A DNA stretch of 48,557 nt from a virus: the IMG/VR virus record IMGVR_UViG_3300037245_001406, positions 1-48,557 of that record. One strand, written 5' to 3'. This document shows positions 14,693 through 39,075 of this stretch, piece after piece. Numbering within the stretch: the stretch's first letter is position 1; every line of letters starts with the position of its first letter. Below the pieces are notes generated by a model, which did no database searches, was not told the origin of the DNA, and was given only the letters and a program-made list of their open reading frames with translations. Position numbers and translations under genes: made by a program.

Positions 14693-14940
14693 GAAAAGCC
14701 AACCTCTACATCCCCGGCATCACCATCGAGGACGTGGACATCAAGGACCCACCGCCGGAGGAGATGCAAGCGCGCGCCATCCCGGACTACCCCGGAGAGC
14801 ATAATTTCGTCCGGTGGCCGGCGATGGACAACGCCACCCATGTGGCCTACCGCCTCGAGACCGCGGCGGCCGCCGTCATCGTGGCGCAGCTCAAGGCCAA
14901 GGCCAAAGCCGCCTTGGACAACGGCACCGGCCACGCATGA
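14689..14940 (+). CDS. Small hypothetical protein
   Basis: An 83-residue protein with ATGA overlap to its neighbour. Begins with a beta-like segment (ANLYIPGITIEDVDIKDPPP) and ends with an Ala/Lys-rich helix (AAVIVAQLKAKAKAALDNGT). No family recognised. Confidence 0.65.
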   Translation: MRKANLYIPGITIEDVDIKDPPPEEMQARAIPDYPGEHNFVRWPAMDNATHVAYRLETAAAAVIVAQLKAKAKAALDNGTGHA

Positions 14941-15107
14941 AAATCCACGCCTACCTCTTGGATGGCCGCGTCCTCGAGCGGGACCTCCCCGTGGATATGC
15001 CGAGGCTTGAGGTAGAGCTCCCCGATGACGGCGGCAAGCGCCGCGTCCTCCGCCGGACGGATGACTCCTACAACGGCGCCGTCATCTACCGCGAGGTCAC
15101 ACCGTGA
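14937..15107 (+). CDS. Small hypothetical protein
   Basis: A 56-residue protein, ATGA-coupled. It looks beta-rich (KIHAYLLDGRVLERDLPVDM; SYNGAVIYREVTP). No motif. Its stop overlaps a GTG start for the next gene. Confidence 0.6.
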   Translation: MKIHAYLLDGRVLERDLPVDMPRLEVELPDDGGKRRVLRRTDDSYNGAVIYREVTP

Positions 15108-16578: not shown

Positions 16579-17158
16579 ATGGCGGACGTGTGGAGATGAG
16601 CGCGTTTGCGAGGCTTGCCAATCCCAAGATGGTGGCCATTGGACCGGAGAGGCCGGCGTCCCGCCTCATCCGGGATGCACCAACCCGGACGGATGCCGGT
16701 GTTACCTCATCTCGGATGAGGACATCGCCGCCGGCGTCAACCATCTCCTCCGCGTGGAGCTCACCGAGGAGAGCGGTGACCCGTCCATCATCGCCAAGGC
16801 TCGCATTGTGCCGGCTCAACACGCTCGCATCCACGGAGACCTCGGCGCCACCGAGGGCCGCTCCGTCAAGGAGGTCCTCGAGGATAGCCTTGGCGTGGAG
16901 CTCGAGGTCCTCGAGGTCCACCCCATCGGCGTCTCCGAGGAGGAGTGGCGTAGCGCGCCGCTCCCGCTCATGTGCTCCGGCTTTCTTGGAGACTACCGGC
17001 CGCCTCCTCCGCCGGCGCCGTGGTGGCGCGTGCTCGTGTGGTTGGTCCGCGATGTCCTCGAGCGCATCCGGGGAGATATCCGTTTCCGGTGGGACCGCGC
17101 GGCGCGCAACGCGGCCGAGGAGCTCGAGAGGAGCCGAGACGATGCCAACCGGGATTGA
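16568..17158 (+). CDS. Protein with MuF-like Cys/His motif and hydrophobic C-terminal helix
   Basis: A 196-residue protein. The N-terminus has CGDERVCEACQSQDGG, then VPPHPGCTNPDGCRCYL (about 31-47). The order CxxC...HPxC...CRC is the zinc-binding ending found in MuF-type head morphogenesis proteins, here without the preceding MuF helices. The middle part is charged and beta/helical (VKEVLEDSLGVELEVLEVHP). A Pro-rich hinge leads to WWRVLVWLVRDVLERIRG, an amphipathic or membrane-associated helix. It overlaps both neighbours. Whether it belongs to the head is not shown by its position. Confidence 0.65.
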   Translation: MGGRWRTCGDERVCEACQSQDGGHWTGEAGVPPHPGCTNPDGCRCYLISDEDIAAGVNHLLRVELTEESGDPSIIAKARIVPAQHARIHGDLGATEGRSVKEVLEDSLGVELEVLEVHPIGVSEEEWRSAPLPLMCSGFLGDYRPPPPPAPWWRVLVWLVRDVLERIRGDIRFRWDRAARNAAEELERSRDDANRD

Positions 17159-18209
17159 GTGGACCGAGGAGACGTGGAATCCGGCCACCGGATGCTCGGC
17201 CGTCTCGCCAGGGTGCCGAAACTGTTACGCCGCCAGGATGGCGCGCCGGCTCGATGGCCGCGGTGTTGGCTACGATGGGACCACGCGGCCTCGAGGCTCC
17301 CGCCTCGGCGCCGCCTCGATGTGGACCGGCCGCGTCAATTGGCTCCCGGAGCGCCTCGAGGTCCCGCTCCGATGGCGCAAGCCGCGCACCGTCTTTGTGT
17401 GCTCGATGGCGGACCTATTCCATGAGGAGCTCGAGCTCGGCCGCATCGCCGCCGTCTTTGGCGTGATGGCCGCCACGCCGCGGCACACCTACCAAGTCCT
17501 CACCAAGCGCGCCTCGAGGATGGCGGACTTTTTCGGTTGGCTCGAGCTCCAATCCGAGAGGACGCGCAAGACCGTCCCGCAACTCCTCGCGGAGCATACC
17601 GCCACGGAGCTCGGCCAGATGGTGCCGATGGCCACGGAGTGGCCGCTCTCCAACGTGTGGCTTGGCGTCTCCATCGAGGACCAAAGGCGCCTCGAGGAGC
17701 GGCTCCCCTACCTCATGGATACGCCGGCGGCCGTCCGGTTTCTCTCGTGTGAGCCGCTCCTCGGTCCTCTTGATTGCCACAATGAAACCAACGCCGGAGG
17801 CGAGGACTACGATTGGCTCACCGGAGAAAACTACCAATGGCGCGATGGGAGCCCGGAGAGACTCCCGCTCCGGCCATCCCTTGATTGGATTATCGCCGGC
17901 GGGGAGAGCGGCGCCGGAGCTCGGCCGTCTCATCCGGCGTGGTTTCGCAAGCTCCGCGATGACGCCACCGAGGCCGGCGTGGCTTTCTTTTTCAAACAAT
18001 GGGGAGCGTGGGCGCCAAGACGGCCGGCCATCCTCACCACCGCCATCGAGGAGCGCATCATCACGGACGCCGGTGGTGGTGATGTCTTGATGCGATGTGT
18101 TGGAAAAACCAAGGCCGGCCGCGAGCTCGACGGCCGGACGTGGGAGGAGATGCCGGCTACAATGGATGACACCGTTAACGAGGAGGAGGACAAGGATGGC
18201 AAAACGTAG
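17142..18209 (+). CDS. Phage Gp37/Gp68 family (DUF5131) protein
   Basis: A 355-residue protein. The start MPTGIEWTEETWNPATGCSA, followed by SPGCRNCYAARMA, is the family hallmark: Cys18, Cys25 and Cys28 with CYA. FVCSMADLFHEE (about 85-96), TYQVLTKRASRM, LSNVWLGVSIEDQ, RFLSCEPLLG, WIIAGGESG and FFKQWG follow in family order. These conserved blocks and the Cys cluster resemble radical-SAM-type TIM barrels, so a [4Fe-4S]-dependent reaction on nucleic acid has been considered plausible; I know of no proven reaction. It is widespread in phages and mobile elements. Three of the family blocks are intact, so I expect it to be functional. Confidence 0.88.
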   Translation: MPTGIEWTEETWNPATGCSAVSPGCRNCYAARMARRLDGRGVGYDGTTRPRGSRLGAASMWTGRVNWLPERLEVPLRWRKPRTVFVCSMADLFHEELELGRIAAVFGVMAATPRHTYQVLTKRASRMADFFGWLELQSERTRKTVPQLLAEHTATELGQMVPMATEWPLSNVWLGVSIEDQRRLEERLPYLMDTPAAVRFLSCEPLLGPLDCHNETNAGGEDYDWLTGENYQWRDGSPERLPLRPSLDWIIAGGESGAGARPSHPAWFRKLRDDATEAGVAFFFKQWGAWAPRRPAILTTAIEERIITDAGGGDVLMRCVGKTKAGRELDGRTWEEMPATMDDTVNEEEDKDGKT

Positions 18210-27518: not shown

Positions 27519-28655
27519 ATGGCCAACACCAACACCGTCACCAACGTCATCCAACAGCTCCTCGCGCAAGGCCTCCTTGCGCTCCGGGAGAACGCGCAAA
27601 TGCCGCGGCTCGTCAACCGCGGCTATGAGTCCGTGGCCGGCGAGAAGGGCTCCACCATCGACATCCCCATCCCGTCCGCCATCACGGCGCAGGATGTCAC
27701 GCCGTCCTACGTCCCGCCGGACGATGCCGGCATCTCTCCCACCAACGTGTCCATCAACTTGGACCAATGGGTGGAGGCGCCTTTCTTCCTCACGGACAAG
27801 GAGCTCCTCGAGGTCCAAGAGGGGACCATCCCCATGCAGGCGTCCGAGGCCATCAAGGCTCTCGCCAACGATGTGGATGACTACCTCTTTTCCCTCTACA
27901 AGAGGGTTTTCGGATGGTCCGGCGTGGGAGGGACTACGCCTTTCCAAACCGACCTCACCGAGTACCTCGACGCGCGCAAGGAGCTCAATAACCAGCTCGC
28001 GCCGATGGACCCGCGCTACTCCGTCATCAACGCGGACGCCGAGGCGGCCGCGCTCGGTCTCCGAGCGTTTCAGGATGCCTCTTTCCGCGGTGACGCGGAT
28101 GGCATCATCCGAGGCCAGATTGGCGAGAAGCTCGGCGCCATGTGGGTGATGGACCAAAACGTCCCGTCCCACACCGCCGGTGACGCCTCCGGCGCCACCA
28201 CGAACGCCGCCGGCTATGCGCTCGGCATCAAGACCATCACCTTGGCGAGCGCCGGCACCGGCGACATCCTCGAGGGGGATGTGATTACCTTCGCCAACCA
28301 CGCGCAAACCTACGCCGTGGTCACCGGTGACGCGGACGTGAGCGATGGCGGGACGGTGGTTTTCTATCCCGGCCTCAAGACGGCCTTGCCTACCTCGGCG
28401 CAGGCCATCACCGTCAAGCCGGACCATGTGGTCAACCTCGCCTTTCATCGGGACGCCTTTGCGTTGGCCTCGCGGCCGTTCGCCGGCGCGGACCCGATGG
28501 GCTTGGGGACCTACATGAGCGCGGTGGACCCCGTCTCGAGGTTGGCTCTCCGCCTCGAGGTTTCGCGCCAGCACAAGAGGACCCGTTTCTCCTATGACAT
28601 CCTCTACGGCGCGCAGCTCGTCCGGCCGGAGCTCGCGGCACGGATGGCCGGCTAG
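27519..28655 (+). CDS. Major capsid protein, P22-coat-like
   Basis: A 378-residue protein starting at ATG 27519. The N-terminal helix (VTNVIQQLLAQGLLALRENA) and VNRGYESVAGEKGSTIDIPI, then IPSAITAQDVTPSYVPPDDA, LDQWVEAPFFLTDKELLEV and MQASEAIKALANDVDDYLFS match the P22-coat/gp5-type family of HK97-fold capsids. A central Gly-rich variable region (HTAGDASGATTNAAGYALGI) may be a surface-exposed insertion. The C-terminus (RLALRLEVSRQHKRTRFSYD) closes the fold. It forms the icosahedral shell. It lies between scaffold and connectors and is bracketed by hairpins; this fits high expression. Confidence 0.88.
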   Translation: MANTNTVTNVIQQLLAQGLLALRENAQMPRLVNRGYESVAGEKGSTIDIPIPSAITAQDVTPSYVPPDDAGISPTNVSINLDQWVEAPFFLTDKELLEVQEGTIPMQASEAIKALANDVDDYLFSLYKRVFGWSGVGGTTPFQTDLTEYLDARKELNNQLAPMDPRYSVINADAEAAALGLRAFQDASFRGDADGIIRGQIGEKLGAMWVMDQNVPSHTAGDASGATTNAAGYALGIKTITLASAGTGDILEGDVITFANHAQTYAVVTGDADVSDGGTVVFYPGLKTALPTSAQAITVKPDHVVNLAFHRDAFALASRPFAGADPMGLGTYMSAVDPVSRLALRLEVSRQHKRTRFSYDILYGAQLVRPELAARMAG

Positions 28656-30511: not shown

Positions 30512-31039
30512 ATGCCAACCGCTGTCAATGCCACCGCCGGTGATGCCGGCCAAAACTCCTACATCACCACGGCCGAGGTTGACACCTACTTTGATGACCG
30601 GCCGAGCTCCGGGACAACGTGGAGCGGCGCGGACGAGGATGACAAAATCCGCGCCGTGCTCTACGCCACCAAGCTCATGGATGCGCTCTTTGTGTGGACC
30701 GGCAATGCCTCGGACCCCGGAGGCCAAGGTCTCCTATGGCCGCGCGTGGGGATGTGGTATCGGAGCGGGGAGAGCGTGCCATCGGACATCATCCCGGATG
30801 AGCTCAAGGACGCCTTGGCGGAGTATTGCCGCGAGGTCCTCGCCGGGGACCGGACGGCGGACAATCCCATCGAGACGCTCGGCCTCAAGAAGCTCCGCGC
30901 CGGACCGGTGGCGCTCGAGTGGGACGAGGACACATCGGCCAAGGTGGTCCCGGACGTGGTGGCCAACCTCCTCCCGGATGATTGGTTTTCGAGCATCTCC
31001 GGCCGTGACCAAGGCATCCGCGAGCTCTCGAGGGCATAG
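30512..31039 (+). CDS. DnaT-like / head-tail connector protein
   Basis: A 175-residue protein starting at ATG 30512. NSYITTAEVDTYFDDRPSSG, then DKIRAVLYATKLMDALFVWT, LLWPRVGMWYRSGESVPSDI and PDELKDALAEYCREVLAGD match small phage proteins annotated as putative DnaT-like or head-tail adaptor. They sit just after coat genes and close the portal. Position and helical pattern favour the connector role. The stop overlaps the next GTG. Confidence 0.78.
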   Translation: MPTAVNATAGDAGQNSYITTAEVDTYFDDRPSSGTTWSGADEDDKIRAVLYATKLMDALFVWTGNASDPGGQGLLWPRVGMWYRSGESVPSDIIPDELKDALAEYCREVLAGDRTADNPIETLGLKKLRAGPVALEWDEDTSAKVVPDVVANLLPDDWFSSISGRDQGIRELSRA

Positions 31040-31434
31040 TGGCCAAGCTCTCCGATGTCATCGCGGGCGCGCTCGAGCTGGCGGACGAGCTCCTCGAGGA
31101 TGAGCAAATCCTCCGGCCAATCACCGTGGCGCGATGGACCGGCCAGGACGTGGAGGGTGACCCCACCTACGCCACGGACATCACGCCGCCGGCCATCGTG
31201 GAGCTCAAACAACAGCTCCGCAAGGACAACAACGGCGTGGAAGTGATGAGCAAAACCAAGCTCACCATCATTCGGCCTATCCCGGACGAGGGCACCGCCG
31301 GCCGGCGTGAGCCAATTGACCCTCGAGACAAAATCACGCTCCCGGATGGGACCACCGGACCCATCATAGACATCGGCGGCCTTGTCTCCGGCGGCACCGG
31401 CAAGCCCTACATGCTCGAGGTTTGGCTTGGATGA
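31039..31434 (+). CDS. Head-tail joining/stopper-like protein
   Basis: A 131-residue protein starting at GTG 31039. Beta-rich with ITVARWTGQDVEGDPTYATD and TGPIIDIGGLVSGGTGKPYM, then LEVWLG. This is the usual pattern of small head-completion or stopper proteins, with a final LEVWLG-type strand. It follows the connector and precedes the glycan genes. Its end overlaps a short ATGA-coupled ORF (31431). Confidence 0.72.
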   Translation: MAKLSDVIAGALELADELLEDEQILRPITVARWTGQDVEGDPTYATDITPPAIVELKQQLRKDNNGVEVMSKTKLTIIRPIPDEGTAGRREPIDPRDKITLPDGTTGPIIDIGGLVSGGTGKPYMLEVWLG

Positions 31435-31562
31435 TGGGAGCTCCCCGCTCTACTGCCGGCGGACGCTCGCCTCGAGACACCAACGGGCTCCGTTTGCGGA
31501 GGAGCTCCCACCAACATCTCACCAAGGAGACGGACCCGCGTGCCACAACCTCCCGATTATGA
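31431..31562 (+). CDS. Possible small ORF coupled to the stopper gene
   Basis: A 43-residue open frame starting at an ATGA overlap. It is Arg/Ser/Pro-rich (APRSTAGGRSPRDTNGLRLR) without hydrophobic or structural motifs, and overlaps the aminotransferase start. Coupling is its only support; it may be spurious. The 31435-31539 interval holds nothing else I can identify. Confidence 0.25.
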   Translation: MMGAPRSTAGGRSPRDTNGLRLRRSSHQHLTKETDPRATTSRL

Positions 31563-32856
31563 GGCCATCCTCGATTATCACGGAACACCACCGGCCGGCT
31601 CTCGAGCTGGCGGTGGCTACTTTGGCCAACACGGCCACGAGCTCCACCGCCAGGAGGAGCGCGCCGCCGTCCTCACGATAGACGGCCGCCAGCTCGCGGA
31701 GGCGGTGGTGGCCAAGCGGCCGCGCCGCATCCCGTTTCAACATCCAACGCTTGGAGCTCTCGAGCGGGAGGCCGTCCTCGAGGTCCTCGAGAGCGGATGG
31801 CTCACCCACGGCGCCAAGGTCCTCGAGCTCGAGAGGCGCGCGGACCTCGAGCTCGCCGGTGGTCCCATCGTCCAACACGCGGTGGCGTGCTCGAGCGGCA
31901 CCGCGGCGCTCCATCTCGGCCTCCTCGGCCTCGAGGTCACCGCCAAGGACGCCGTCATTGTGCCGGCGCTCACCTACATCGCCACCGCCAACGCCGTGGC
32001 CTACACCGGCGCCGAGCTCCTCGTGGCGGACGTGGACCCCGACACATGGACAATGGACCCGGAGAGCGCCGCGAGATTGGCGCATGGCGCGCGCCAGCAC
32101 GGCCGCCGTGTGGCCGCGGCCATCCCCGTGGCTCTATGTGGTGTCCCGGCGGACATCGGCGCTCTACGGGCCGCTCTCGGCTCCGATGTGGCGCTCCTCG
32201 AGGACAACGCGCAAGCCATCGGCCGCGAGCAACACCCGGACGTGGCCGCCGCCTCCTACTCTCTCCACGGCTCCAAGACCATCACCGCCGGCGAGGGCGG
32301 CCTCCTCATCACCAAGGACGAGGAGCTCGCGGCTCGAGCTCGCCTCTATCGCGGCCAAGGATTTGACCCGCGCCTCCGCCATAGCTACATCCACCGCGTC
32401 ATTGGTCACAACTATCGCCTCACCGAGCTCGCGGCCGCCGTCGCCTTGGCACAGCTCACACGCCTCCCCGAGCTCCTCGGCCGGCGCCGCGAGCTCGCCA
32501 ACCTCTACGTCAAGGAGCTCCGCCGCGCGATGACGGCCAAACGCGGACCGCTCCCCGAGCTCCAAGGCCAAGGCCGTGACGTCTCCGCGCCGTGGGCCAT
32601 CGGCATCAAGCTCCCGGAGCGGTGGCACCACACCAACGTCCGCCGTGAGCTCAAGCTCCGCGGCATCGAGACGCGGCCGATGTTCTATCCCATCCACAAG
32701 CAACCGCCGTATGCCGAGCGCGTCCGCCATGATGCACCGGTGGCCGAGGCGCTCGCGGAGCGTTGCCTATTCCTACCTCTCCACGCCGAGCTCGAGGACG
32801 CCGATGTTGTCCGCATCGTCTCCGAGCTGGCGGACATCCTCGAGGGTGGCCGGTGA
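31540..32856 (+). CDS. DegT/DnrJ/EryC1/StrS-family sugar aminotransferase
   Basis: A 438-residue protein starting at GTG 31540 behind AAGGAGA. From about residue 63 it follows the family: RIPFQHPTLGALEREAVLEV, LESGWLTHGAKVLELER, ACSSGTAALHLGLLGLEV, VPALTYIATANAVAYTGAEL, VALCGVPADIGAL, LLEDNAQAIG and SYSLHGSKTITAGEGG, with Lys246 as the PLP Schiff-base lysine. Such enzymes add an amino group to a nucleotide-linked keto sugar. The first 62 residues are an extra Gly/His/Arg-rich N-terminal piece (GGGYFGQHGHELHRQEERAA), not part of the usual fold. It stands first in a glycan gene cassette with an acyltransferase directly after it. Confidence 0.9.
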   Translation: MPQPPDYEAILDYHGTPPAGSRAGGGYFGQHGHELHRQEERAAVLTIDGRQLAEAVVAKRPRRIPFQHPTLGALEREAVLEVLESGWLTHGAKVLELERRADLELAGGPIVQHAVACSSGTAALHLGLLGLEVTAKDAVIVPALTYIATANAVAYTGAELLVADVDPDTWTMDPESAARLAHGARQHGRRVAAAIPVALCGVPADIGALRAALGSDVALLEDNAQAIGREQHPDVAAASYSLHGSKTITAGEGGLLITKDEELAARARLYRGQGFDPRLRHSYIHRVIGHNYRLTELAAAVALAQLTRLPELLGRRRELANLYVKELRRAMTAKRGPLPELQGQGRDVSAPWAIGIKLPERWHHTNVRRELKLRGIETRPMFYPIHKQPPYAERVRHDAPVAEALAERCLFLPLHAELEDADVVRIVSELADILEGGR

Positions 32857-33500
32857 TATTGCCGGACGTCTTGAACGCGGCAAGGCGACGGCTTGCCGGC
32901 CATCCTCAACTTTCCCAAGATGAGCATGAGCTCTACTCTCCGGTGGTGGTCCTCGAGGCGGCCAACATCCACGCCGCGCTCTCCTCGAGGATTGACTCCT
33001 TTTGCAAGCTCGAGGGCGCCGGCGGCATCTACATCGGAGAGCTCGTCCACATCGCCTCCTTTTGCCACATCGGCGTGGGCGGAGGCCTCGTCATCATGGA
33101 TGACAACTCGAGCGCCGGGAGCGGCGCCAAGGTCATCTCCGGGAGCAACACCTATGGAGCCGGCCACGGATGCTCCGCCATCGCGCCGGACGCCAAGGTC
33201 ACGCGCTCCTATGTCTACATCGGCCGCAACGCCACGCTCTACGCCGGCGCCATCGTCCTCCCCGGATGCACCATCGGAGACGGCGCCGTCATCGCCGCCG
33301 GCGCGGTGGTCCTCGAGGGCACCGATGTCCCCGCCGGCGAGATGTGGGCCGGCACGCCGGCGCGGCTAGTGCGGATAATCGAGAGCGGCCGCGTCCGAGC
33401 TCGGTATCTTTGCAAGGCCGAGGGATGCGCCAAACCACGCCGGCCGGACCGTCACACATGCGGCGGGACATCTTGCGTCCACGTAGAGGAGCTCCATTGA
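32853..33500 (+). CDS. Left-handed beta-helix sugar acyltransferase with zinc-like tail
   Basis: A 215-residue protein starting at GTG 32853. The hexapeptide-repeat core is IYIGELVHIASFCHIGVGGG, VIMDDNSSAGSGAKVISGSN, SAIAPDAKVTRSYVYIGRNA and LYAGAIVLPGCTIGDGAVIA, with AAGAVVLEGTDVPAGEMWAG. This is the LbH fold of WbbJ/perB-type O- or N-acyltransferases; with the aminotransferase it could make an N-acetyl or N-formyl amino sugar. The last 32 residues add CKAEGCAKPRRPDRHTCGGT, then SCVHVEELH, a Cys/His set that may bind zinc and is not usual for this family. It overlaps the aminotransferase by 4 bases. Confidence 0.88.
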   Translation: MILPDVLNAARRRLAGHPQLSQDEHELYSPVVVLEAANIHAALSSRIDSFCKLEGAGGIYIGELVHIASFCHIGVGGGLVIMDDNSSAGSGAKVISGSNTYGAGHGCSAIAPDAKVTRSYVYIGRNATLYAGAIVLPGCTIGDGAVIAAGAVVLEGTDVPAGEMWAGTPARLVRIIESGRVRARYLCKAEGCAKPRRPDRHTCGGTSCVHVEELH

Positions 33501-33796
33501 CGCTCTCCGAGGCCGTGGACTCTTGGCTTGAGAATGAGGCCGCCATCCGCAAGCTCGCCGGCGACGTCGGCGGGGATTTCCTCGAGCTCGTGGAGGACCT
33601 CTACACCACCATCACGGCGCCGGCCTCGAGGCGGAGCGCCAAGATAGAGGCCACGCGCCGGCTCCTCGAGCTCACGCGCTCGAGCCTCGCCAACATCAAC
33701 ACGCGCGGACCTCGGCCTCACACGCCGGCGGATGATTGGGATTGGGGAGTCCCCGGCTCCACGGAGGACCTCGAGCTCCTCGAGCTGGCGCCGTGA
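33497..33796 (+). CDS. Small hypothetical protein in the glycan cassette
   Basis: A 99-residue protein starting at TTG 33497 (TAGAGGAG just upstream). Helical N-terminus (LSEAVDSWLENEAAIRKLAG), Arg/Lys-rich central part (ASRRSAKIEATRRLLELTRS) and acidic end (WGVPGSTEDLELLELAP). No family recognised. It is tightly packed between acyltransferase and membrane gene, so a role with this pathway or a terminal piece of an older gene is possible. Confidence 0.68.
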   Translation: MTLSEAVDSWLENEAAIRKLAGDVGGDFLELVEDLYTTITAPASRRSAKIEATRRLLELTRSSLANINTRGPRPHTPADDWDWGVPGSTEDLELLELAP

Positions 33797-33906
33797 CCGC
33801 GCGCCGATTGGCCGAGCTCGCGGCCATCGTCTTTGGCTCCCTCTTGATTTGGGCGCTCATCGGCTTTGCGTTGTGGTGGACCTACAACTTTGAGGGCCGT
33901 GGATGA
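33793..33906 (+). CDS. Very small membrane protein
   Basis: A 37-residue protein starting at GTG 33793, overlapping both neighbours. It has a basic start (MTARRLAELAA) and a hydrophobic helix (IVFGSLLIWALIGFALWWTY). It may anchor a complex in the inner membrane. No further evidence. Confidence 0.58.
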   Translation: MTARRLAELAAIVFGSLLIWALIGFALWWTYNFEGRG

Positions 33907-34592
33907 GGATTGTGGTGGGCTCCGCGTTTCGAGACGCGGCCGGCTACGTGGAGCGACACATGCGGCAAGTCCGCGAGCTCGAGGACCACGCCGGCGGGGA
34001 CCACACCGTCCGCGTCCTCGCCGTGGAGGGTGACAGCTCGGACAAGACGCGCCGAGCTCTCGCCGTGTGGGCTCACACCTTTGACCTCGAGCTCCAACTC
34101 AACACCCACAACCACGGCCTCCCGCCGATGGGCTCCACCGAGGCGCCGGCGCGCATGGCCGCGCTCTCCGGTGTTGGCAATGCCATCTTTGCCGGCGTCC
34201 GCCAGGAGGACGAGGTCCTCGTCTACGTGGAGAGTGATTTGGTTTGGGGGCCTCACCACATCGGGAGCCTCGTGGACATCGCCGCCGAGCGCCGCGGTGG
34301 CTTTGATGTCATCTCCCCAATGGTGTGGGCCGGTGACAATTTCTATGACATTTGGGGGTTTCGCCGCGGTGGCCACCGTTTCTCCGGTGGGCCGCCGTAC
34401 CACCGCGAGCTCAAGGCCACCGGCATCACCGAGCTCGACTCCGCCGGCTCTTGCCTCGTGATGCGAGCCGATGTGGCGCGCAAGGTCCCGCCGATGTCCA
34501 CCGGCGCGCTCGTGGAGTGGTGTGCAAACGCTCGAGCGTCCGGCTACCGTCTCGGAGTTCATCGAGATTTCCACGTCCGCCATCCCGCATAG
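33903..34592 (+). CDS. GT-A fold glycosyltransferase
   Basis: A 229-residue protein starting at ATG 33903. MRIVVGSAFRDAAGYVERHM begins a nucleotide-sugar-binding fold; VRVLAVEGDSSDKTRRALAV and DEVLVYVESDLVWGPHHIGS (ESD as a DxD-like metal site, about 111-113) and FDVISPMVWAGDNFYDIWGF follow. It ends GYRLGVHRDFHVRHP, a typical acceptor/His end. This resembles GT2 or Mnn9/Anp1-like transferases. It probably adds a sugar to an acceptor in the cassette. Tight overlap with the small membrane gene. Confidence 0.82.
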   Translation: MRIVVGSAFRDAAGYVERHMRQVRELEDHAGGDHTVRVLAVEGDSSDKTRRALAVWAHTFDLELQLNTHNHGLPPMGSTEAPARMAALSGVGNAIFAGVRQEDEVLVYVESDLVWGPHHIGSLVDIAAERRGGFDVISPMVWAGDNFYDIWGFRRGGHRFSGGPPYHRELKATGITELDSAGSCLVMRADVARKVPPMSTGALVEWCANARASGYRLGVHRDFHVRHPA

Positions 34593-34602
34593 GAGGACCC
34601 GC

Positions 34603-35586
34603 GTGCCGTATCAACCAATCTACATCGCCGGCGAGACCAAAAACGTGGAGCATGAGCGCGCCTCAACGCCGGCGCGTTTCGAGCTCATCAAGCGCGTCCT
34701 CGATGAGTACCGCCGGCCGTTTACCGTCTTGGACATCGGCGCATCGTGTGGCTATTTCGGTTTCCGCGCAGCTCACGAGCACGGCGCCGCGGCCATCCTC
34801 GTGGATACCGGCGAGATGCTCCCGGCGTTGGCCGCGGATAACGCGGCCGCCGGCAATGACCGCATCATCGTCCTCAAGCGCAAGCTCTCCATCGAGGACC
34901 TCGAGGCGCTCGCCTCGTGTGAGGCCTTTGACGTGGTCCTCGCGCTCAACGTCCTCCATTGGTTTGGCGCGAGCTGGCGGCCGGCCGCGGACCTCCTCCT
35001 CGAGCTCGGTGACAATGTCATCATCGAGACGCCGCCGGCCAATGACACCGGCGCGCTCGGCCAAGGCGTGGTCCCGGAAATCCACCGCTATCTCGAGGAG
35101 CTCACCGGCCACGAGCTCCTCGGCACCACACCAAGCCACACCACCAAAGGCGTGGAGCGTCCCATCTACCTCTATCGCCGGCCAAAGCGCCAGCTCCGCC
35201 GCGCCTACATCGGCGCGCCGCCTAAAGCTCACATCCGCGCTCACGCCATCCAATCCACGCCGCAAGCTCGGAGCGTCATCTTTGCCGGCGCCGGCATCGG
35301 ACCACGGCTATGGCATCCCGGCATCAACCTCGTCACCTACCTCGAGCTCGGTGGAGCGTGGCCGCTCCCGGCCTACATCGCCGCGCACTATGGCGCCGCG
35401 GTGGCGGAGCTCGAGGACCACCACGGAGACCTCCGGCCTCACAACGTCATCATCAACGGCCGGAGCGCCAAGCTCATTGACGGCCGCCAGGAGGACGCGC
35501 GCGCCATCTACGATGACGCCGATGTGGTCAAGGAGACCGTGGCCACCATCCTCCGCCACGGAGCGGCGCCAGGAGGCGCGGTGTGA
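34603..35586 (+). CDS. Methyltransferase joined to a kinase-like domain (WbdD-like order)
   Basis: A 327-residue protein starting at GTG 34603 after AGGAGG (34591-34596). The N-terminal half has the SAM site TVLDIGASCGYFGFRAA (41-57), VDTGEML, and FDVVLALNVLHWFGASWRPA (about 109-128). The C-terminal half has GPRLWHPGINLVTYLELGGA, then HHGDLRPHNVIINGRSAKLI, ending DGRQ: H274-G-D276-L-R-P-H-N281 and D293-G294 match the HxDxxxxN catalytic loop and DxG of small-molecule kinases. This is the domain order of WbdD, which methylates and phosphorylates the end of an O-antigen chain and stops its growth. The kinase half is short, so it may be a minimal form. Confidence 0.78.
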   Translation: MPYQPIYIAGETKNVEHERASTPARFELIKRVLDEYRRPFTVLDIGASCGYFGFRAAHEHGAAAILVDTGEMLPALAADNAAAGNDRIIVLKRKLSIEDLEALASCEAFDVVLALNVLHWFGASWRPAADLLLELGDNVIIETPPANDTGALGQGVVPEIHRYLEELTGHELLGTTPSHTTKGVERPIYLYRRPKRQLRRAYIGAPPKAHIRAHAIQSTPQARSVIFAGAGIGPRLWHPGINLVTYLELGGAWPLPAYIAAHYGAAVAELEDHHGDLRPHNVIINGRSAKLIDGRQEDARAIYDDADVVKETVATILRHGAAPGGAV

Positions 35587-36521
35587 TGCGCGTATTTGTC
35601 CAAGCGCCGGAGAAATTGAGCCGCGCGATGCATCGTGTGGCCAATGCGCTCGAGCATGAGGGGATGGAGGCCGGATTGGAGCTCGTGAGCCGGCCGGAGG
35701 ACGCCGAGCTCGTGGTCCTCCATGTGATTGGATACCCCGAAACCGTCAAGGCCGTGGAGGCGCTCGAGCTCGCCGGCAAACGCTACGCCATCATCCAATA
35801 TTGCCTCCGCTCCACCCAAGAGCCGCGCGTCCCGGAGTGGCTCGAGCTCTGGCGCGGGAGCGTTGGCGTGTGGAGCTACTACAACCTCGAGGAGCTCGCG
35901 GCCGAGGACGGCGTGGAGCTCGATGGCGTCCCTTTCTACTTCGCTCCGCTCGGCGCGGATTCGCGGATTTTCAATCCCGGCATCGGCATCGAGGTCCCGC
36001 CTCCGCCGCGGTTTGTCATCACCACGAGCGGCTACGTGGCCGCCACGGAGGGCATCAAGGAGGCCGCCGCGGCCACGCGCCGAGCTCGCCGGCGGATGTA
36101 CCACCTTGGACCGGACCTCGGCCTCGGCGCGTGGGTGGAGCGCGGCTTGGACATCACGGACCTCATGCTCGCCAAAATCTACCGGCGCTCGGACTACGTG
36201 GCCGGCCTCCGGCGCGCGGAGGGCTTCGAGCTCCCGGCCGCCGAGGGCCTCCTATGCGGAGCTCGGCCAATCTGCTTTGACCGGCCACACTACCGAGACC
36301 ACTATGGCCGATGGGCCTACTTCGTCAACGAGGGCACCAAGGAGGAGCTCGAGGAGGAGCTCCTCGGCCTCTTTGAGTGTGAGCCGGAGCCGCTCACCAC
36401 GGACGAGCTCGAGGAGGCGCGGACCTATTTCTCATGGAGCCGCGTTTGCTCCGGTTTCTACAACTCCATCCTCGAGCTCCTCGAGGACACCACCGCGAGA
36501 GATGACGATGGCAAAACGTAA
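35586..36521 (+). CDS. Glycosyltransferase, GT-B-like
   Basis: A 311-residue protein; ATG 35586 overlaps the previous stop (GTG 35583 is possible). MRVFVQAPEKLSRAMHRVAN, LVVLHVIGYPETVKAVEALE, RYAIIQYCLRSTQEPRVPEW and VPFYFAPLGADSRIFNPGIG, with EVPPPPRFVITTSGYVAATE, is a GT4-like layout: N-terminal acceptor domain, linker FAPLGAD, then donor domain. The usual EGFG/E-x7-E block reads SDYVAGLRRAEGFELPAAEG, then LLCGARPICFDRPHY (about 206-239), which fits. It is likely an inverting or retaining sugar transferase of this cassette. Confidence 0.8.
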   Translation: MRVFVQAPEKLSRAMHRVANALEHEGMEAGLELVSRPEDAELVVLHVIGYPETVKAVEALELAGKRYAIIQYCLRSTQEPRVPEWLELWRGSVGVWSYYNLEELAAEDGVELDGVPFYFAPLGADSRIFNPGIGIEVPPPPRFVITTSGYVAATEGIKEAAAATRRARRRMYHLGPDLGLGAWVERGLDITDLMLAKIYRRSDYVAGLRRAEGFELPAAEGLLCGARPICFDRPHYRDHYGRWAYFVNEGTKEELEEELLGLFECEPEPLTTDELEEARTYFSWSRVCSGFYNSILELLEDTTARDDDGKT

Positions 36522-37791
36522 GCTCCTTTGGGTGGGAGACGCCGGCGTGGCTACCGGCTTCGCTCGAGCAACTCATCACCTATGCGATTGGCTCCACGCC
36601 TCCGGTGAGTGGGACGTGGAGGTCCTCGGCATCAACTACTACGGTGACCCCGATGTCCAAGCGCGGTGGCCATACAAAATCCACCCATGCATGACGGAGC
36701 GCGGTGGTGACCCGCTCGGCATGGCGCGCCTCCCGGAGATTTGCGCGCGCCACCGGCCGGACGTGGTGGTGGTCCTCCAAGACCCGTGGTTTATCCCTCA
36801 CTACCGCGCCGCCGTTGGCACCACACCGCTCGTGGTATGGCTCGCCGTGGACGGCAAGAATCTCCGCGCGGACGAGTACCTCGCCGGCGTCAATCACGCC
36901 ATCTTTTGGACGGAGTTTGCCAAGGAGGAGGCGCGCCTCGGTGGCTTCGCCGGCCACGCCGGCGTGGTCCCGCTCGGCGTGGACCTCGAGCTCTACCGGC
37001 CGCTCCCGCGCCAGGAGGCGCGCGTGGCGTGGGGCCTCAAAGGCTCGCCGGCGGAGACCGGCTACATTGTCGGCAACGTCAACCGCAACCAACCGCGCAA
37101 GCGCCTCGAGCTCACCATTGACTATTTCGCGGAGTGGGTCCTCGAGGACAAGGTCCACGACGCCTACCTCATGCTCCATCTGGCGCCAACCGGGGAGCAC
37201 GCCGTAGACGTCAAACAACTCATGGGCTATTACGGCATCCCTCACCGCCTCATCCTCTCCGTCCCGCCAACCATCGGCCAAGGCGTCCCGGAGAAAAGTC
37301 TCGCGGGGATGTATTCCGCGTTTGATGTGATGCTCTCCACCACACAAGGAGAGGGCTTTGGTCTCACCACGTTTGAGGCGATGGCGGCCGGCGTCCCATG
37401 CATCGCGCCGGATTGGTCCGCGCTCGGTGAGCTCCTCGCCGGTGGCGCCGGCGAGCTCGTCCCGTGCTCCACCATCTCCGTCACCGCGGGGAGCCGCTCT
37501 TTTCCCGCCGGCAACATCATCAACCCCAACGTCATCGGCGGAGTCCCGGACAAGGCCGCCAGCATCGAGGCGCTCCGCAAGCTCTACGCGGACAAGAGCT
37601 ACCGCGCCGAGCTGGCGGACCGCGGCCGCGCTCGTGTTGGAGAGGACCGTTTCCGATGGAGTAACATTGGCGAGGCTTTCCACCGCGAGCTCGAGGCGGC
37701 CTTGGAGCCGCGCATCACACGCTACGAGCTCCCCAAGGACGGCGCCGCCTCCGCGAGCGGCAACGAGGAGACGGATGCCGGCAACGCCTAA
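36508..37791 (+). CDS. Glycosyltransferase family 4-like
   Basis: A 427-residue protein. ATG 36508 is preferred over ATG 36502 because GAGAG lies 6 bases upstream. MAKRKLLWVGDAGVATGFAR starts the GT-B N-domain. VVVLQDPWFIPHYRAAVGTT and FWTEFAKEEARLGGFAGHAG follow. The C-domain has VPLGVDLELYRPLPRQEARV, VGNVNRNQPRKRLELTIDYF and TTQGEGFGLTTFEAMAAGVP (donor-binding EGFGLTxxE). The overall layout is normal for GT4. It overlaps the previous gene by 14 bases, and its C-terminus overlaps the gp10-like gene by 17. Confidence 0.9.
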   Translation: MAKRKLLWVGDAGVATGFARATHHLCDWLHASGEWDVEVLGINYYGDPDVQARWPYKIHPCMTERGGDPLGMARLPEICARHRPDVVVVLQDPWFIPHYRAAVGTTPLVVWLAVDGKNLRADEYLAGVNHAIFWTEFAKEEARLGGFAGHAGVVPLGVDLELYRPLPRQEARVAWGLKGSPAETGYIVGNVNRNQPRKRLELTIDYFAEWVLEDKVHDAYLMLHLAPTGEHAVDVKQLMGYYGIPHRLILSVPPTIGQGVPEKSLAGMYSAFDVMLSTTQGEGFGLTTFEAMAAGVPCIAPDWSALGELLAGGAGELVPCSTISVTAGSRSFPAGNIINPNVIGGVPDKAASIEALRKLYADKSYRAELADRGRARVGEDRFRWSNIGEAFHRELEAALEPRITRYELPKDGAASASGNEETDAGNA

Positions 37792-38158
37792 ATTCAAGCT
37801 CGAGGGCGCCAGGGAGATGGAGCGCAACCTCCTCGGCATCGCCAAGGAGCTCCCCAAGGACGCCGGCGCCGCGCTCCTCAACGCGGCCGAGGCCGTCCTC
37901 ACGCTCTCTCTCCGCGTCTATGTTCCGGTGGACCTCGGACCGCTCCGCGCCTCCGGCCAAACGGCCGGACCGGAACACACGCGCAAGCTCATCATTGTGG
38001 CCATAGCCTTTGGCTCCCCCACGGTTGACTATGCGGTGGTCCAACACGAGGAGCCGGATTTCGAGCACACCGTTGGAGAGTACAAATACCTTGAGACACC
38101 TTTGATGCAAGCCGCGGGGAGCCTCGCGGCCAACCTCGCGCGGGAGCTAAGATTTTGA
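37775..38158 (+). CDS. HK97-gp10-like tail/neck protein
   Basis: A 127-residue protein. FKLEGAREMERNLLGIAKEL, then PKDAGAALLNAAEAVLTLSL and YVPVDLGPLRASGQTAGP are typical of HK97-gp10-like small virion proteins (PVDxGxLRxS). FGSPTVDYAVVQHEEPDFEH and KYLETPLMQAAGSLAANLAR complete the pattern. It sits at the head-tail interface next to the tail terminator. It resumes the structural gene order after the glycan cassette. Confidence 0.84.
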   Translation: MPATPKFKLEGAREMERNLLGIAKELPKDAGAALLNAAEAVLTLSLRVYVPVDLGPLRASGQTAGPEHTRKLIIVAIAFGSPTVDYAVVQHEEPDFEHTVGEYKYLETPLMQAAGSLAANLARELRF

Positions 38159-38577
38159 CGGCCTACTATCGGCGGATAAAAATGTTGCAAGAGCCAAACG
38201 ATGCGCTCGGCTTGGACAAGAAAAGCCGGCCGCGGTGGAGTTTCAACATTGGCATCGAGAAGTCCCCGAGCTCGGTGGACCACACCGGCCTCGAGCTCAC
38301 GCGGCTCCTCCAAAACAAGGGCCTTGGGACGGAGACGGTGGACCTATTCACCGGCCGCCGCGCGGCCATCCCGGACGGGGATGGACCCTACACTCAAGTC
38401 CTCGTCAATCCGGGAGCCTCGCCGGAGATGATTCAAAACCAAGACGCTCCATTTACCGAGCGGCCAAACGCTCAAGTGGTAGTGAGAGCCGCGTCCAACG
38501 CCGTGGCTCGAGCCAAGGCGCGAGCGGTATACAATGCTCTCGCCGTCATCAAAAACGAAACACTCTCGACGGCGTAG
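38155..38577 (+). CDS. Tail terminator-like (minor capsid) protein
   Basis: A 140-residue protein starting at TTG 38155, overlapping the previous stop by four bases. DHTGLELTRLLQNKGLGTET, GDGPYTQVLVNPGASPEMIQ, RPNAQVVVRAASNAVARAKA and ARAVYNALAVIKNETLS match proteins that cap the tail tube at the head side. The central RxxxxAxAKAxxxYNAL helix is characteristic. Function: stops tail tube elongation and joins it to the neck. Confidence 0.75.
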   Translation: MTAYYRRIKMLQEPNDALGLDKKSRPRWSFNIGIEKSPSSVDHTGLELTRLLQNKGLGTETVDLFTGRRAAIPDGDGPYTQVLVNPGASPEMIQNQDAPFTERPNAQVVVRAASNAVARAKARAVYNALAVIKNETLSTA

Positions 38578-38622: not shown

Positions 38623-39075
38623 ATGGGCGGACAGTCAGCGCAAGGCACCATCCTCGCGCGGAGCGTAGACCCCAATTGGCCGGACAGCTCACCGCAAGGA
38701 GGTCCCGTCGCCTTTACGGACGTGGCCGAGCTCAGGGACCTCACCCCGCCGGCGTTGCAGCGCAACACCATCGAGACCACCACCCACAACGAGACGTGGG
38801 ACAAGAAAGTGGTTGGCATCAAGCGCCACGGTGACCTCTCGGCGGACCTCAACTTCGAGCCATCCGATGCCACCCAAGACCATCTCACCGGACTCCAAAA
38901 GTCCTACGACGATGGCGCGCGGGACATCTGGCAAATCACCTTTCCCAACACGGAGAAATGGCTTTTCTCCGGCTACATCACCGGCTTTGAGGTAGACGCG
39001 CCGGTGGATGACCGACTCGCCGCGGACCTCACCGTGGCCGTCACCGGCCAACACGAGTGGCAAGCCGCGGCCTAG
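38623..39075 (+). CDS. Major tail tube protein
   Basis: A 150-residue protein; ATG 38623 has GGAGGAGCAAG upstream. VAELRDLTPPALQRNTIETT, HNETWDKKVVGIKRHGDLSA, LNFEPSDATQDHLTGLQKSY and WQITFPNTEKWLFSGYITGF, then LTVAVTGQHEW, match the tube fold (beta-sandwich with helix). Small, very abundant proteins with a GxKRxGDLS core are tail tubes of siphophages. Its gene is followed by a strong hairpin (39096-39135), as the coat gene is. Confidence 0.85.
   Translation: MGGQSAQGTILARSVDPNWPDSSPQGGPVAFTDVAELRDLTPPALQRNTIETTTHNETWDKKVVGIKRHGDLSADLNFEPSDATQDHLTGLQKSYDDGARDIWQITFPNTEKWLFSGYITGFEVDAPVDDRLAADLTVAVTGQHEWQAAA

Follow-up and report, generated by a model that had tools for sequence, protein, structure and literature searches.

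A variable glycan locus between the head- and tail-completion genes of an uncultured siphovirus, with a WbdD-like methyltransferase-kinase protein

Results

The cassette described here occupies positions 31540-37791 of IMG/VR virus record IMGVR_UViG_3300037245_001406, whose full 48,557 bases (G+C 65.5%) are hereafter called the window, and lies on the plus strand between head-completion and tail-completion genes. It contains a sugar aminotransferase, a hexapeptide acyltransferase, a GT-A fold glycosyltransferase, a methyltransferase-kinase protein, two GT-B glycosyltransferases (GT-B1 and GT-B2) and two small open reading frames (ORFs). An original prediction made from the DNA letters had placed the six enzymes at this site and on this strand, which is borne out by family, profile and structure-model matches. 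The cassette genes are translationally coupled, and their junctions read, in gene order, GTGA, TTGA, GTGA, ATGA, an 11-nt spacer with GGAGG, TGATG and overlaps of about 20 and about 17 nt. These junctions confirm that the genes overlap or nearly touch, as had been predicted; the two small ORFs between the acyltransferase and GT-A genes had not been listed.

The first gene (31540..32856, plus strand, as are all genes below unless noted) encodes a DegT/DnrJ sugar aminotransferase (Pfam DegT, 3.5e-82), in which the pyridoxal-phosphate residues of the DegT fold are present and the catalytic Lys246 and Asp222 are invariant across 17 aligned homologues. Its nearest solved structures are those of perosamine synthetase (3bn1/3dr7, 5e-64) and its best NCBIfam models are of the PseC and LegC types, all scoring far below the equivalog cut-offs. 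The ORF carries an N-terminal extension of about 60 residues that most relatives lack. Related contig L098 (reverse strand, 14743-15048) has a free-standing 101-aa ORF with a transmembrane segment in its C-terminal part, and the beginning of that ORF shares 58% identity with the first 36 residues of the aminotransferase ORF (window 31540-31650; LDYxGTPxAGxxAGGGYxGQHxHxLH). Taken together with the 37-aa ORF described below, this extension looks like a small membrane protein that has been split, with one part fused to the aminotransferase.

The second gene (32853..33500) starts at a GTG that overlaps the aminotransferase stop (GTGA) and encodes a left-handed beta-helix acyltransferase resembling WbbJ, NeuD and maltose acetyltransferase (Hexapep 2.5e-12, NeuD_NnaD 1.9e-12, WbbJ 1.9e-10). 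The acyltransferase class that was originally proposed is thereby confirmed; the more specific claim of N-acylation goes further than the sequence, which does not distinguish N- from O-transfer, and the enzyme could be either. The following 99-aa ORF (33497..33796), between the acyltransferase and GT-A genes, gave no match in family searches and has no homologue in the loci compared, while the 37-aa ORF (33793..33906), bounded by GTGA and ATGA overlaps, encodes a peptide with one hydrophobic, putatively membrane-spanning segment.

The three glycosyltransferases keep intact catalytic motifs, as expected of enzymes that glycosylate virions. The GT-A enzyme (33903..34592; VESDL motif) is of a GT69/CAP59, Anp1 and GT2-like type: alone it gives a weak family match (CAP59, 0.0046), and among its 36 homologues CAP59 is matched by 18, GT2 by 10 and Anp1 by six. 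A minus-strand ORF (33882-34376) that scored above it in a simple gene caller was rejected because the GT-A protein is conserved in these 36 homologues and the operon is entirely plus-stranded. GT-B1 (35586..36521; EX7E motif) is GT4-like; its single-sequence family match is weak, its profile matches PDB entries at 9.1e-10, and its AlphaFold model (predicted local distance difference test, pLDDT, 91.3; predicted template modelling score 0.89) retrieves MshA (5.6e-12) and many other GT4 enzymes with Foldseek. GT-B2 (36502..37791), the constant gene of the locus, is a GT4 enzyme (Glyco_trans_1_4, 1e-9; phrog_2170, 7.7e-29). Relatives of GT-B2 at 37-40% identity occur in Verrucomicrobia contigs (L229-L236), and inspection by eye of two of these loci, L229 and L230, found no phage structural genes around them. 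A serine/threonine kinase-like gene lies upstream of the GT-B2 relative in both.

The methyltransferase-kinase protein (34603..35586) comprises an N-terminal WbdD-like methyltransferase, recognised by profile comparison with WbdD, followed by a reduced kinase C-lobe (HGDLRPHN..LIDG). Its start is probably GTG 34603 rather than 34471 or 34522, since GGAGG lies upstream and homologues begin at the same YQ motif. The methyltransferase domain matches Methyltransf_12 (1.4e-5) and phrog_9361 (4.5e-15). A single-sequence search for relatives of the methyltransferase-kinase found none; a two-row profile of the window methyltransferase and gp13 of mycobacteriophage Baka found 47 loci, and its best PDB match is WbdD (1.3e-6). 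With a profile of 17 fused phage proteins of the METHYLTRANSFERASE-kinase family, WbdD is again the best PDB match (7.4e-19), and in a second, weak alignment stretch the phage HGDxRPxN...LID falls on HDDVRPWN...LID, the catalytic loop of the WbdD kinase. In Escherichia coli O9a, the terminal mannose of the O-antigen is first phosphorylated by WbdD, which subsequently adds a methyl group to this phosphate; methylation requires Tyr16, His132, His133 and Arg203, phosphorylation requires Asp351, and metal ions are held by Asn356 and Asp369 (PMC3482155). Equivalents of all of these but His133 are retained in the window as Tyr3, His119, Arg186, Asp276, Asn281 and Asp293 (numbered from GTG 34603). 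The protein is a reduced relative of WbdD, with no recognisable kinase N-lobe, no coiled-coil domain and, at the level of the system, no export by an ABC transporter. An AlphaFold model computed without an alignment (pLDDT 41) was discarded and left unused.

WbdD-type methyltransferases are combined with other kinases elsewhere. About 20 other contigs encode similar reduced fusions, and in several cases (L264, L269, L270, L271, L275) the fusion lies in the same slot between connector and neck genes. In five viral contigs (L294, L298, L301, L304, L310; best match 6.7e-15), the fusion partner of the methyltransferase is a CTP-dependent riboflavin-kinase-like domain (DUF120). Finally, mycobacteriophages Baka, LittleE and Tweety carry a separate kinase gene ahead of the methyltransferase gene, and the Baka kinase matches APH (2.7e-7). 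The three combinations counted here are therefore a fusion to a reduced protein-kinase C-lobe, a fusion to a riboflavin-kinase-like domain and a separate APH-like kinase gene. The joining of three different kinases to one kind of methyltransferase suggests that phosphorylation and then methylation may act in sequence.

A profile search with GT-B2 returned at least 570 relatives, the best 80 of which represent 61 distinct viral contigs; in 58 of these 61, a neck, tail-terminator or major-tail homologue is encoded within 3 kb downstream of GT-B2. The same downstream neighbours are found in 47 of the 50 contigs whose flank reaches 1.5 kb or more, and an adaptor or connector lies upstream in 13 of the 17 contigs with enough flank. 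The gap between connector and neck genes extends from 1.2 kb, where GT-B2 stands alone, up to 11 kb. The original prediction had proposed to look for the same gene set in related phages, and the search was successful: among 87 distinct GT-B2 contigs from all sources, GT-B2 is accompanied by the aminotransferase, acyltransferase, GT-A and GT-B1 genes in 15, by this set minus the aminotransferase in five and by the GT-A and GT-B1 combination in five, numbers that are lower bounds since several contigs are incomplete. IMG/VR contig L093 matches the window in the identity, order and location of the five genes, and L098/L013 adds a further GT-A gene and another methyltransferase. Matches to Pfam among 78 other cassette ORFs include GT2 (11), several methyltransferase families, sugar C-methyltransferases (three), B12-binding radical SAM enzymes (two), a sulfotransferase and a nucleotidyltransferase. 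We thus observe a hypervariable glycan locus within the virion operon, in which one constant glycosyltransferase and changing sugar enzymes share a head-tail slot. A B12-binding radical SAM enzyme lies within the glycan cassette of L092 (4443-6047), and a similar protein adjoins GT-B2 in L228 (6204-7811), a contig binned in a Sulfuricaulis metagenome-assembled genome.

The five genes hold the same order in many contigs at about 35-55% protein identity, and the ratio of non-synonymous to synonymous substitution rates (dN/dS) between close relatives is 0.26 for the aminotransferase, 0.39 for the acyltransferase, 0.26-0.41 for GT-A, 0.15-0.47 for GT-B1 and 0.10-0.33 for GT-B2. The conserved order and these ratios argue that the gene set is not due to chance, and ratios of 0.10-0.47 contradict, in those relatives, the possibility raised earlier that the enzymes are inactive remnants. 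Pairwise identities of GT-B2 correlate with those of the terminator and major tail proteins (rho 0.38) about as well as tail genes do among themselves (0.25-0.34), and those of the aminotransferase and GT-A show little relation to the tail genes (rho 0 to 0.2). This pattern fits a constant backbone gene with exchanged cargo, to which such mirror-tree style comparisons bring minor support since the correlations are weak, the identities near saturation and the numbers small.

The genome around the cassette is of siphovirus type, with genes for the small and large terminase subunits, portal, head-morphogenesis protein, scaffold and major capsid protein, as well as adaptor, connector, major tail, chaperone and tape-measure proteins; a DNA-level similarity search of the window found no similar named phage. 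Upstream of the cassette lie an Ad1-like head-tail adaptor (30512..31039; phrog_477, 2.4e-26) and a head-tail connector or head-closure-like protein (31039..31434; phrog_3881, 2.6e-4) with homologues in 45 loci. Downstream are a neck or head-closure-like protein (37775..38158; phrog_556, 2.9e-5), which adjoins GT-B2 in most contigs, and a tail-terminator-like protein assigned by phrog_10344 (0.0017) and synteny (38182..38577). The major capsid protein (27519..28655; phrog_283, 2.8e-78) and the major tail protein (38623..39075; phrog_158, 1.3e-20) are candidate acceptors of a glycan.

Discussion

Our analysis indicates that the cassette is probably a glycan locus of modular make-up that belongs to the virion operon and would assemble a short glycan on a virion protein and modify it through a WbdD-like protein. 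Presumably expressed late together with the virion genes, it would begin by aminating a nucleotide-linked keto-sugar of the host, probably a 4-keto-6-deoxyhexose; the window and cassette ORFs scanned include no 4,6-dehydratase, so that the keto-sugar would be host-supplied. The beta-helix enzyme would then acylate the amino sugar, after which GT-A, GT-B1 and GT-B2, working in the cytoplasm, would build a short glycan with the major tail, capsid or neck protein as acceptor. The WbdD-like protein may modify this growing glycan, its ancestral activity being the phosphorylation of a sugar followed by methylation of the phosphate. The capacities to build, acylate, transfer, methylate and phosphorylate a sugar, which the original prediction had attributed to the cassette, each find some sequence support, the last two with reservations given below. 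Of the two outcomes that it had offered, glycosylation of virion proteins appears better than remodelling of the host surface glycan, in view of the position found in 58 of 61 contigs, the lack of flippase and lipid-carrier genes and the likeness to loci of mycobacteriophages whose virions are reportedly glycosylated.

Several observations weigh against this interpretation. An acceptor signature or Ser/Thr-rich tails were sought and none was found, and the Ser/Thr content of the major tail and capsid proteins is not exceptional. The position in the structural operon could reflect late expression alone, and since the contigs were selected by similarity to this GT-B2, the 58 positions out of 61 are not independent of ancestry. 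In the methyltransferase, WbdD His133 is replaced by Trp120, where the other aligned relatives have His-His, so that the set of phosphate-site residues is incomplete. The kinase part has about 130 residues compared with about 250 in WbdD and keeps the catalytic loop and metal-binding Asp instead of a two-lobed domain. Together with the absence of any Pfam kinase match in this protein, the Trp for His replacement and the short kinase make its activity uncertain.

Late remodelling of a host surface polysaccharide, by which the phage would mask its receptor, exclude superinfection or prevent virions from re-adsorbing, is suggested by the WbdD-, perosamine synthetase-, WbbJ- and NeuD-like enzymes, all typical of O-antigen loci, and by the cellular GT-B2 relatives of Verrucomicrobia. 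However, family searches and a scan for membrane segments found no flippase, polymerase or lipid-carrier gene in the window cassette, nor a Gtr-type membrane protein; polytopic membrane proteins are absent from the core genes, with one candidate among the 78 variable ORFs. This lack makes an acceptor in the cytoplasm more plausible, with a virion protein as the likeliest candidate. Moreover, the locus is fixed in the head-tail operon and not found among morons, and late expression would leave little time for a change of the envelope, which makes this scenario unlikely in our opinion.

The variable gene content, reminiscent of a cargo hotspot, and the divergence of the aminotransferase and GT-A genes, which does not follow the tail genes, would also accord with late-operon cargo whose product (a free nucleotide sugar, a small glycoside or a glycosylated host protein) never reaches the virion. 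As GT-B2 stays beside neck and tail genes in nearly all contigs and its divergence follows the tail genes as much as these follow one another, we regard this as quite improbable. Phage glycosyltransferases can also hypermodify DNA (Pyle et al. 2024, as cited in PMC12619734), and protection of modified bases against restriction could be envisaged here; yet no hydroxymethylase, thymidylate-synthase-like or other base-priming enzyme was found among the window proteins scanned, a set that did not include all small unannotated ORFs, and this disfavours DNA glycosylation. Given also the placement within the structural operon and the presence of amino-sugar and cap enzymes, which are unusual for DNA glycosylation, such a role is highly improbable.

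Glycosylation of virions by phage enzymes, which we favour, is already known from a few actinobacteriophages. In Che8-type mycobacteriophages, both capsid and tail tube of the virion bear glycans (Freeman et al. 2023, as cited in PMC12619734 and PMC11256854). As in the window, glycosyltransferases are encoded by the tailed phage itself, and related blocks are present in Tweety, Baka and LittleE: Tweety, which belongs to the genus of Che8, carries its kinase-methyltransferase-glycosyltransferase block at the end of the genome, in the locus that houses the three glycosyltransferases of Che8, and Baka and LittleE have a related block between capsid and adaptor genes. In contrast to Che8, the window locus, from a phage known only from metagenome data, lies between connector and neck genes, uses different glycosyltransferase families and adds an aminotransferase-acyltransferase pair for an amino sugar. 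Genes 11-20 of Baka (cluster J, Omegavirus) likewise join a kinase, a methyltransferase that shares 28-32% identity with the window domain and several glycosyltransferases in the head module, but the kinase and methyltransferase are separate genes, the block precedes the adaptor gene instead of following it, and no aminotransferase or beta-helix gene is annotated in it. O-antigen loci have the same classes of amino-sugar enzymes (perosamine synthetase/PseC-type and NeuD/WbbJ-type) in adjacent genes, whereas the window has no dehydratase, lipid-carrier or export genes.

As far as a limited literature search shows, two features are new: a slot between connector and neck genes that recurs in uncultured phages with varying sugar chemistry, and the occurrence of WbdD-type methyltransferases with kinase partners of three kinds. 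The locus indicates that many uncultured siphoviruses may glycosylate their virions, with the genes for this held at a single fixed position in the virion operon, and the hypervariable chemistry of the locus is what would be expected of a coat selected by the host or the environment. More tentatively, tailed phages might commonly cap their virion glycans with methyl-phosphate (or phosphate) by means of a WbdD-type methyltransferase, which would have joined with different kinases on three or more occasions, an idea that we consider possible rather than probable. Because this methyltransferase recurs with three types of kinase, the presence of a specific glycan cap can be tested in cultured mycobacteriophages.

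Elsewhere in the window, positions 17142-18209 encode a DUF5131 protein (6.2e-91). GAGCTC hexamers seem very frequent window-wide, for example at 31440-31700 and 33760-33820, and often correspond to Glu-Leu codons.

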